Positions 41,122-45,320 of a stretch of DNA of 45,320 nucleotides are shown here, piece after piece; position 1 is the stretch's first letter, and every line of letters starts with the position of its first letter. Origin of the DNA: Minisyncoccota bacterium (GTDB lineage Bacteria > Patescibacteriota > Minisyncoccia > Phycocordibacterales > UBA1550); contig JAQTPS010000004.1 in the NCBI GenBank assembly GCA_028712595.1, forward strand, positions 1-45,320. Reading direction: 5' to 3'. The notes beneath the pieces were generated by a model that worked only from the letters and a program-made list of their open reading frames with translations, had not been told where the DNA came from and searched no databases. The position numbers were made by a program, and so were the translations under genes.

Positions 41122-42828
41122 ATGATAACCAAAAAATTGGAAACTTTAATACGCGAAGCCCTAAAGAAAATGGGCATCGAGTCGAGCGAGATAAAACTCG
41201 AACGTCCAGAGGATGCCAGTCACGGGGATTATGCAACAAATGTAGCTCTTGCGTGCGCTAAAACTCAAAAAATCGCGCCGAAACAATTTGCGGAAAAGCT
41301 TGTAGCAGAACTTTTGAACGCGCCTCACGAAGGTATTGAGAAAATAGAAATAGCAGGTCCGGGATTTATCAATTTTTTCTTTGATGATGCATATTTTTCA
41401 AAGTCGCTTGAAGACGCTCTTGGAGCTGGCGATAAATGGGGGACTAACGCAACGCTTAAAAATAAAAAAGTTTTGGTTGAATATACCGACCCAAATATTT
41501 TAAAAGAATTTCATATCGGGCATTTGATGTCCAACACAATAGGAGAATCAATAGCTTGCATAATGGAGACCACTGGCGCAGAGGTTAAGAGAGCTTGTTA
41601 TCAAGGAGATGTTGGAATGCATGTAGCTTGCGCTATTTGGGGAATAATTGATCTCAAAAAAGATGGAAGCGCAGAACCAATGAACTCTAAGTTTTTGGGT
41701 AAAGCCTATGCTCGTGGAGCGACAGCTTCGAAGGAAAACGAAAATGCAAAAAAAGAAATTATTGAAATAAATAAAAAAATTTACACTCGCTCTGACGAGA
41801 AGATAAATAAACTTTACGATCTTGGTCGCCAAGTAAGCTTGGATGATTTTGAAGGGAAATATAAAAAACTCGGAATGAAGACTCGCCTAAACGGAAAGTC
41901 ATTCGATTTCTATTTTTTTGAATCCAAGACGTGGGAGTTCGGCAAAAAAATCGTGCTAGACAACCCAAAAATATTTGAAAAAAGCGATGGCGCTATCATT
42001 TATAAAGGAGACGAATCCAAAGGCCTTCACACAAGAGTGTTTATAAACAGTGAAGGAATTCCTACATATGAGGCAAAAGACCTTGGTTTGTCAAAAATAA
42101 AATACGAAACATATCCATACGAAATATCAATAGTTGTTACAGCAAACGAGCAAAAAGAATATTTCAGGGTAGTTTTGGACGCAATGGCAAAAGTTTCTCC
42201 CGAGCTCGCAAAAAAGACCGAGCACTATTCTCACGGAATGCTCCGACTTCCTACCGGCAAAATGTCTTCACGAACGGGCGATGTTGTAACTGCCGAAGCA
42301 CTGCTCCGCGACGTGAAAGGGCTTGCTATTGGTAAAATAAAAGATTCTAATTTTTCTTCGGAAGAAAAAAATGATATTGCCGAGAAAGTTGCGCTTGGCG
42401 CAATTAAATATTCCATTCTTCGTCAATCGTCCGGCAAAGACATTATTTTTGATTTTGAAAAGTCGCTCTCATTTGAGGGGGACTCTGGTCCGTATCTTCA
42501 ATATTCATACGCTCGAGCTCGGTCACTCCTAGAAAAGGCAAGTGGAAAGAAAATTGACGTAACAAACTATAAAGAAATCTCTCCGCTTCATAAATACATT
42601 GTCCGCTTTCCAGAAGTTGTTCTTCGCGCGGGCGAAACACGCCAGTCGCATTACATCACCACGTATCTGATTGACCTTGCTCGCGAGTTTAATTCATTTT
42701 ATGGAAATACTCTTGTGCTCGATGGTTCGCCTGACGAGGCATACAAGCTCGCTCTTGTAAAAGCGACATCGCAAACTCTCAAAAATGGTCTTGAACTTCT
42801 CGGTATTCCTGTTCCAGAAAGAATGTAA
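41122..42828 (+). CDS. argS: Arginyl-tRNA synthetase
   Basis: VEYTDPNILKEFHIGHLMSNTIGESIACIME; RLPTGKMSSRTGDVVTAEALL; C-terminal anticodon-binding domain. Confidence 0.96.
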   Translation: MITKKLETLIREALKKMGIESSEIKLERPEDASHGDYATNVALACAKTQKIAPKQFAEKLVAELLNAPHEGIEKIEIAGPGFINFFFDDAYFSKSLEDALGAGDKWGTNATLKNKKVLVEYTDPNILKEFHIGHLMSNTIGESIACIMETTGAEVKRACYQGDVGMHVACAIWGIIDLKKDGSAEPMNSKFLGKAYARGATASKENENAKKEIIEINKKIYTRSDEKINKLYDLGRQVSLDDFEGKYKKLGMKTRLNGKSFDFYFFESKTWEFGKKIVLDNPKIFEKSDGAIIYKGDESKGLHTRVFINSEGIPTYEAKDLGLSKIKYETYPYEISIVVTANEQKEYFRVVLDAMAKVSPELAKKTEHYSHGMLRLPTGKMSSRTGDVVTAEALLRDVKGLAIGKIKDSNFSSEEKNDIAEKVALGAIKYSILRQSSGKDIIFDFEKSLSFEGDSGPYLQYSYARARSLLEKASGKKIDVTNYKEISPLHKYIVRFPEVVLRAGETRQSHYITTYLIDLAREFNSFYGNTLVLDGSPDEAYKLALVKATSQTLKNGLELLGIPVPERM

Positions 42829-43021: not shown

Positions 43022-43077
43022 TTGCACAGCAAGGGGCTTTTTGATAGTCGCTCCCTTTTGTGGTATTCTCAATAAAT

Positions 43078-45320
43078 ATGGATGAATTGGGGAAAAAATC
43101 AGATATAGCAAAACGAGAAGAAGAAACACTGGCAAAATGGGAACGCGAGCATATTTTTGAAAAATCTCTGGCGCAAACCAAAAAAGGCAAACCATTTGTT
43201 TTTTACGACGGACCTCCTTTTGCTACAGGACTTCCTCACTATGGGCACATTGTTGCAAGTACAATAAAAGACACAATTCCTCGCTATCAAACTATGCGCG
43301 GGCGTTATGTTCGTCGTGTGTGGGGCTGGGATTGTCACGGACTTCCTATTGAGAACTTGATAGAAAAAGAACTTGGTCTTGAGCATAAACAAGATATTGA
43401 AAAATACGGAGTCGCGAATTTTAATGAAGCCGCTCGTAAATCAGTGACTCGTTATGAAACAGAGTGGAAGAAAATGATTCCACGCATTGGAAGGTGGATT
43501 GACATGGAGCATTCATACAAGACGATGGATGCAAGCTATACAGAGTCAATCTGGTGGTCATTTAAAGACCTTTATGCGAAAGGACTCATCTATCAAAACT
43601 TCAAATCGATGCACATTTGCACGCGATGCGAAACGACTCTTTCAAACAACGAAGTTGCCGAAGGGTATAAAGAAATTAGCGATATCTCGGTAACAATAAA
43701 GCTTGAACTTATAGACGAACCCAAGACTTTTGCTCTCGCTTGGACCACGACTCCATGGACGTTGCCGGGGAACGTTGCTCTCGCAGTAAACCCAGACGAG
43801 AAATATTCTATTGTGAAAATGGAAGATGAGAAATATATTCTCGCCACACCATTCCTCGAAAAAGTTTTAGCCGGTAAAAAATATGAGACAATAAAAACAA
43901 TAAAAGGCAGAGAACTTGTTGGGAAATCCTACAGACCACTTTTTGACTATTATTCTAGTGACAAAAAACTTGAGAATCGCGAGAATGGTTGGAAAATTTA
44001 CGGAGCAGACTTTGTAACAATGGAAAGCGGTACGGGAATTGTGCATGTGGCTCCTGCTTTTGGTGAAGACGACATGTTGCTCGGCAAGCGTGAGAATTTG
44101 CCTTTTGTTCAGCATGTTCGCGTAGACGGAATAATGAAGCCAGAAGTAAAAGATTTTGCAGGAATGCATGTAAAGCCAAAATCTGAGGATGAAAAAACAC
44201 GTCTTGCCACCGACATTGCCGTATTAAAATATCTACAAGAACACGGAACATTTTTCTCGAAAGAAAAAATTAAGCACGCATATCCGCACTGCTGGCGTTG
44301 CGACACACCGCTACTAAACTACGCGGCGGAGTCATGGTTCGTAAAATCCCCAGCTCTAAAAGATAAACTTCTTTCCGAAAATGTGAAAACAACATGGGTT
44401 CCAGATACTTTGCGTGATGGACGTTTTGGCAAATGGATAGAAAACACTCGCGATTGGGCAATTTCCCGCTCCCGCTATTGGGGCGCGCCACTTCCGGTGT
44501 GGAACTGTACAAAATGTGACAAGCGTTTAGTAATTGGTTCACGCGACGAGCTCGAAAGACAAACCAAAAAATCCGGCAACAAATATATTGTAATGCGTCA
44601 CGGAGAAGCAGAAAGCAATGTTTCCGGTATCGTAAGTTCAAAAATAAAAGGCAGTGACGCATTTAAGTTGACCACAAAGGGTTGCGCGCAAGCCAAAAAG
44701 ACGGGCATTAAACTAAAGAACAAAAAGATTGACATCATTTTCGCTTCGCCACTTGGACGAACGAAGGAAACTGCAAATATTGTTTCCGAAGTCATAGGGT
44801 ATGACCCAAAAAAGATAATTACAGATGAACGCATAAAAGAAATAGATGTTGGAGTATTCAATGGGCGTTTAATAGGGGAATATCGCAAGCACATTTCTTC
44901 TGATGAAGAAAAAATCAACAAACGTCCCGATGGTGGAGAAAATCTTTTGGATGTTAAGCGTCGTGTCATGGCGTTCCTCGCAGAGATTGAAGAGCATTAC
45001 GAAAATAAAAATATACTTATAGTTACACACGAATATCCGGCATGGATGCTTGCATCCGGATCTCGTGGTCTAACATCGGAAGAAACAATAGCCCTAAAGG
45101 GCGACAAAGATGAATTTGTTGAAACTAGTGATTTCTTTGATTTAAAGTTTGCTCCGTTTCCACGCAATGACAATTTCGAGTTTGACCTTCACCGTCCATA
45201 TATCGATGATGTTCCTGTCGTATGTTCTTGCGGAGGCGCGATGACTCGCGTTCCGTATGTTTTCGATTGTTGGTTTGAGTCTGGCTCTATGCCACACGCT
45301 CAATTCCATTATCCTTTTGA
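43078..45320 (+). CDS. ileS: Isoleucyl-tRNA synthetase with embedded histidine-phosphatase domain (3' end outside window)
   Basis: GPPFATGLPHYGHIVASTIKDTIPRYQTMRGRYVRRVWGWDCHGLPIE; TTPWTLPGNVALAVNPDEKY; ISRSRYWGAPLPVWNCTKC; phosphatase-like block at 44581-45168 (KYIVMRHGEAESN...SPLGRTKETA...VTHEYPAW); then DLHRPYIDDV...VFDCWFESGSMPHAQFHYPF. Confidence 0.95.
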   Translation, partial: MDELGKKSDIAKREEETLAKWEREHIFEKSLAQTKKGKPFVFYDGPPFATGLPHYGHIVASTIKDTIPRYQTMRGRYVRRVWGWDCHGLPIENLIEKELGLEHKQDIEKYGVANFNEAARKSVTRYETEWKKMIPRIGRWIDMEHSYKTMDASYTESIWWSFKDLYAKGLIYQNFKSMHICTRCETTLSNNEVAEGYKEISDISVTIKLELIDEPKTFALAWTTTPWTLPGNVALAVNPDEKYSIVKMEDEKYILATPFLEKVLAGKKYETIKTIKGRELVGKSYRPLFDYYSSDKKLENRENGWKIYGADFVTMESGTGIVHVAPAFGEDDMLLGKRENLPFVQHVRVDGIMKPEVKDFAGMHVKPKSEDEKTRLATDIAVLKYLQEHGTFFSKEKIKHAYPHCWRCDTPLLNYAAESWFVKSPALKDKLLSENVKTTWVPDTLRDGRFGKWIENTRDWAISRSRYWGAPLPVWNCTKCDKRLVIGSRDELERQTKKSGNKYIVMRHGEAESNVSGIVSSKIKGSDAFKLTTKGCAQAKKTGIKLKNKKIDIIFASPLGRTKETANIVSEVIGYDPKKIITDERIKEIDVGVFNGRLIGEYRKHISSDEEKINKRPDGGENLLDVKRRVMAFLAEIEEHYENKNILIVTHEYPAWMLASGSRGLTSEETIALKGDKDEFVETSDFFDLKFAPFPRNDNFEFDLHRPYIDDVPVVCSCGGAMTRVPYVFDCWFESGSMPHAQFHYPF

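Follow-up and report, generated by a model that had tools for sequence, protein, structure and literature searches.

Results

The ileS gene at the contig end

The window, meaning the whole stretch of DNA analysed here, is the entire contig C10, 45,320 bases long, from a genome of 660 kb, whose closest named relatives in our search were Candidatus Yonathbacteria (Patescibacteria). Near the contig end, argS (41,122–42,828, + strand) lies immediately upstream of ileS, the N-terminal part of which (approximately 747 codons; 43,078–45,320, +) reads as a type-2-like isoleucyl-tRNA synthetase (IleRS). The reading frame 43,060–45,318 (+) is open with zero internal stops and passes from IleRS through a phosphatase domain back into IleRS. 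The ATG at 43,078 is the start conserved in relatives (INMDELEKKSD). The gene is cut by the contig end at 45,320, and contig C34 of the same genome picks up exactly there, first with HYPF and then with the KMSK region and the C-terminal domains, interrupted by one NNNN assembly gap. Both IleRS motifs are present: HYGH, the HIGH-type motif of the synthetase active site, was read directly from the window sequence (43,237–43,248, +), and KMSK is on C34. In Pfam, tRNA-synt_1 matched the ileS frame with 307 bits. TIGR00392 gave 600.7 bits (cut-off 621.4) on the window fragment, from which the C-terminus is missing, and 873 bits on the full-length IleRS of a congener.

The AlphaFold model of a full-length congener IleRS had a pLDDT of 90.5 and a pTM of 0.81, and the best Foldseek matches of a full-length relative model were to Priestia megaterium IleRS2. 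Like P. megaterium IleRS2 (8C8V) and the Thermus thermophilus enzyme (1ILE), the window-type IleRS has the whole synthetase fold with HIGH, KMSK, editing-domain sequence, zinc ribbon, anticodon domain, and C-terminal domains, but it differs from both in carrying approximately 200 additional residues in the zinc-ribbon loop. Of the zinc ribbon, the first half (WNCTKC) is at 44,500–44,517 (+), with the Cys codons of CTKC starting at 44,506 and 44,515, as seen in the sequence and the alignment with relatives. The synthetase resumes with FDLHRPYIDDV at 45,181–45,231 (+), a segment that ends in the second half of the ribbon, CSC (Cys codons from 45,223 and 45,229); insert-less relatives are continuous here. 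The insertion site is the CP2 zinc-ribbon loop, between CxxC and CxC, where the insert stands in place of a few loop residues: insert-less relatives have GSRQELGVDEKFDLHRPYIDEIKLKCKCGG, and the window has GSRDELERQTKKSG-domain-FEFDLHRPYIDDVPVVCSCGG.

NCBIfam family NF040702, IleRS with an N-acetyltransferase domain, is a precedent for an additional enzyme within IleRS. The added enzyme is a different one, however; the window scored 241.9 bits against the NF040702 cut-off of 1999, and Pfam/NCBIfam profile searches gave no GNAT match in the window IleRS. None of the IleRS structure entries returned by the fold search mentioned a phosphatase in its description.

The inserted phosphatase domain

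From the sequence alone, the initial annotation had placed a histidine phosphatase domain, absent from canonical IleRS, at 44,581–45,168. Both points held: Pfam finds tRNA-synt_1 and His_Phos_1 in one open frame, and comparison with relatives set the boundaries of this 199-residue domain (branch 1, PF00300) at 44,578–45,174 (+), a few bases from those first given. His_Phos_1 scored 118.7 bits (115–119 across runs; cut-off 21.7), and our family profile A1 scored 284 bits. The active site, which had been described as intact, comprises the RHG Arg (44,596–44,598) and nucleophile His (44,599–44,601), the second phosphate-pocket Arg in SPLGR (44,758–44,760), the Glu of KEID as the expected general acid (44,839–44,841), and the second pocket His in THE (45,028–45,030), all on the + strand. 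These five residues are unchanged in all 135 distinct IleRS-embedded copies, and loss of the catalytic His, which had been named as an observation that would speak against the annotation, was seen in none of them. The position of the KEID Glu is occupied by Asp in some separate (non-embedded) copies.

A structure prediction, also proposed in the initial annotation, yielded a confident branch-1 fold for the insert alone (pLDDT 95.5, pTM 0.92). Its top PDB matches in Foldseek were all branch-1 histidine phosphatases or mutases, the best being PspA, the phosphoserine phosphatase of Hydrogenobacter thermophilus (4IJ5, 4IJ6). PspA is also the nearest solved relative by sequence (3.1e-15); it superimposed on the insert model with a TM-score of 0.73 at 29% identity, and the catalytic residues are identical, although PspA is a free-standing enzyme. 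The fold and catalytic residues are likewise shared with branch-1 enzymes of the PhoE, CobC, and dPGM types, from which the insert differs by its own signature, NxYxxRHGxAExN...SSxPE...LT.

The insert reached the cut-off of none of the NCBIfam phosphatase families examined. The best match was archaeal-type dPGM (NF038349; 97.8 bits, cut-off 225), followed by PspA phosphoserine phosphatase (NF045917; 80.5 bits, cut-off 350), CobC alpha-ribazole phosphatase (TIGR03162; 73.8 bits, cut-off 162.9), and SixA phosphohistidine phosphatase (TIGR00249; 32.7 bits, cut-off 74.5). Judged by profile, catalytic residues, and predicted branch-1 fold, we concluded that the insert is a complete branch-1 histidine phosphatase domain.

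Conservation and occurrence among relatives

In a 30-sequence subset, the mean pairwise identity was 43% for the insert and 66% for the remaining protein. Six independent close pairs gave dN/dS values of 0.035–0.105 for the insert, similar to those of the synthetase core. These values and the invariant residues indicate that the insert is under purifying selection that preserves its active site, and the embedded phosphatase is apparently active, as judged from this conservation. A frameshift or assembly chimera had been raised as a possible source of error; in 30 relatives from many families, as well as in Candidatus Yonathbacteria records, one frame runs through the insert. Together with the continuation on C34, the intact residues, and the low dN/dS, these frames ruled out an artefact, whether frameshift, chimera, or pseudogene.

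The embedded insert was found in 56 of 61 genomes (the window genome and 60 relatives). The domain profile matched 209 of 293 genomes of the class and 53 of 294 genomes sampled across the phylum (Patescibacteria); the two samples overlap, and a minority of the matches are separate genes. Most matches lay within frames of approximately 1,150–1,230 residues, and approximately 75 of 80 loci taken from the GTDB genome collection were embedded in IleRS frames. We concluded that the embedded arrangement is old and common. The sampled genomes are incomplete, some more than others, so absences are provisional. Insert-less ileS with no separate copy nearby was seen in G036, G043, and others. In two genomes of the window's genus (G008 and G009), neither this type of ileS, at the threshold applied, nor His_Phos was matched; either their IleRS is of another kind or the assembly has a gap. 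A shortened IleRS insert was observed in genome G333 (locus L222, residues ~519–690 of the frame). One embedded copy (L125) is on a contig labelled Spirochaetia bacterium, possibly mis-binned Patescibacteria.

Separate genes and gene neighbourhood

At nine loci of the class and its relatives (L077, L078, L079, L081, L082, L083, L085, L185, and L190), a phosphatase of this family is encoded separately, with argS before it, an insert-less ileS after it, and often recO next. L183 resembles these loci but is cut off, and at L080 the separate phosphatase gene follows argS and ileS is absent. These gene neighbours point to a link between the phosphatase and tRNA charging. Separate copies away from synthetases also occur (L086–L088 and the archaeal L178); L178 (1581–2171, +) is in a record named archaeon GW2011_AR19, with no synthetase neighbour seen. 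In a quick domain tree, the separate copies were scattered among the embedded ones. A quick FastTree of IleRS required at least 16 changes between the fused and non-fused states, counting gain and loss alike; shuffled labels gave a mean of 26. The history may have been a single ancient insertion that was later excised or lost in places, or several separate insertions.

Inserts in ValRS and other variants

A histidine phosphatase at the equivalent loop of valyl-tRNA synthetase (ValRS) was found in five sampled genomes (G531, G213, G391, G049, and G026), and in G026, G049, and G213 both IleRS and ValRS carry inserts. Most ValRS inserts sit on long, separate branches of the quick domain tree, which suggests that ValRS captured the histidine phosphatase independently. 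In the ValRS insert at L116 (940–3906, −), the second catalytic His is replaced by Ser and the Glu by Asp; it is perhaps a decaying copy.

Two further arrangements were observed in IleRS. L073 (2253–6641, +) encodes a 1,462-residue IleRS whose zinc loop holds two histidine phosphatase domains in tandem, and frames of similar length occur in other genomes of its family. L084 (2135–6415, −) encodes an IleRS with a GNAT domain (residues 641–739) and a histidine phosphatase (895–1043) at a site outside the zinc loop.

Discussion

Here, we propose that the window encodes a bifunctional IleRS, in which a type-2-like synthetase carries a competent phosphatase in its CP2 loop, and that aminoacylation by enzymes of the IleRS/ValRS type most likely either generates the substrate or is disturbed by it; we put the chances of this proposal at about even. 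In its favour, besides the conservation and the gene neighbourhood, the insert was the sole histidine phosphatase detected in 24 of the 61 sampled genomes. The chemistry would follow the usual branch-1 route, with a phosphohistidine intermediate on the RHG His, the phosphate gripped by the two Arg residues and the second His, and the Glu serving as acid/base. The substrate would belong to the small phosphorylated molecules. As the association spans both IleRS and ValRS, a shared aminoacylation product, analogue, or poison is the leading guess. Among such molecules we tentatively favour AMP, or an adenylate product or analogue akin to it, though this choice is itself rather doubtful. A phosphatase of the charging machinery, present in IleRS and independently in ValRS, may thus remove a phosphorylated product, analogue, or poison and provide a second clean-up besides the editing domain in much of Patescibacteria; in this full form the idea is speculative and somewhat improbable.

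The initial annotation had suggested the hydrolysis of a phosphorylated by-product or signal coupled to aminoacylation. Its embedded phosphatase with an intact active site, foreign to canonical IleRS, stood, and coupling is plausible, being indirectly supported by the separate phosphatase gene flanked by argS and ileS and by the similar ValRS inserts in the same loop. Two of its candidate substrates, PPi in the sense of a substitute for a missing pyrophosphatase and a signal, taken here as ppGpp in a conserved role, are disfavoured as described below; AMP, AppppA, and phosphoproteins stay on its list as candidates. Against our proposal, the sequence points to no particular substrate, given the scores under all NCBIfam cut-offs, the link with synthetases may have arisen by chance from operon order and a permissive loop, the L116 ValRS insert is without the second His, and the function of the insert is dispensable in some relatives, because G036, G043, and others have neither the insert nor a nearby separate copy.

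The main rival, which we consider possible but on balance unlikely, is operon compaction: a metabolite phosphatase of general purpose, its gene next to ileS, was taken up by a permissive surface loop and is still active, with a substrate unrelated to aminoacylation. The order argS-phosphatase-ileS does exist as separate genes, the trees intermix separate and embedded forms, the same loop accepts tandem or unrelated histidine phosphatases (L073 and the ValRS cases), and some separate copies are unlinked to synthetases. However, the repeated, seemingly independent capture of one fold by IleRS and ValRS exceeds a single accident. Moreover, phosphoglycerate mutase (PGM) activity is not the role of the insert where it is the sole histidine phosphatase, as 16 such genomes are without both enolase and an iPGM-type metalloenzyme.

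Returning to a substrate connected with aminoacylation, the domain might detoxify inhibitors of IleRS/ValRS that are nucleotide-like or phosphoramidates, in analogy to protection of the GNAT type. Natural inhibitors target IleRS, the distant relative L084 combines GNAT with a histidine phosphatase, and NCBIfam holds the IleRS-with-GNAT family mentioned above. We know of no inhibitor for these organisms, however, and the near-universal occurrence of the insert across large clades points to a housekeeping substrate; this reading appears very improbable.

Local clearing of PPi made by the synthetase seems very improbable. PPi is a product of both the IleRS and ValRS reactions, and its removal would draw the synthetase reaction forward, as is established in enzymology; but a search with PF00719 found a separate pyrophosphatase in the window genome and in all 15 congeners, which disfavours a need for a substitute, and the closest structures belong to phosphomonoesterases and mutases rather than to pyrophosphatases. 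We give equally little credence to turnover of ppGpp or a similar amino-acid starvation signal. A RelA/SpoT-family protein is encoded in the window genome and in 51 of the 61 sampled genomes, yet the insert is retained in all 10 sampled genomes that gave no RelA/SpoT match, which argues against ppGpp as the conserved role, and to our knowledge no branch-1 histidine phosphatase is a ppGpp hydrolase.

Least credible is a glycolytic PGM parked inside IleRS: although archaeal dPGM is the best NCBIfam match and an iPGM-type enzyme is missing from most sampled relatives, the score is far under the cut-off, the window genome already encodes an iPGM-type enzyme as well as a dPGM fused to pyruvate kinase, and the 16 genomes without enolase and iPGM disfavour such a role. 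This fusion, the second unusual one in the window genome, is at locus L004 (G000, contig C6, 2606–4021, −), where a dPGM-like histidine phosphatase was observed at the N-terminus of a pyruvate kinase barrel, adjoining enolase.

IleRS, an essential enzyme, ranks among the most thoroughly studied. Full-text searches of open-licence PMC papers returned none whose title and abstract describe an IleRS-phosphatase fusion. A natural comparison set is available in the relatives with a separate gene, with the embedded form, or with no insert, and in the ValRS cases. In the organisms studied here, a second, apparently active enzyme lies in the catalytic half of IleRS, and most sampled members of a large bacterial class have retained it. 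Either the tRNA charging of minimal cells includes an unrecognised phosphate-removing step, or operon neighbours have been swallowed whole by an essential enzyme and are still working.
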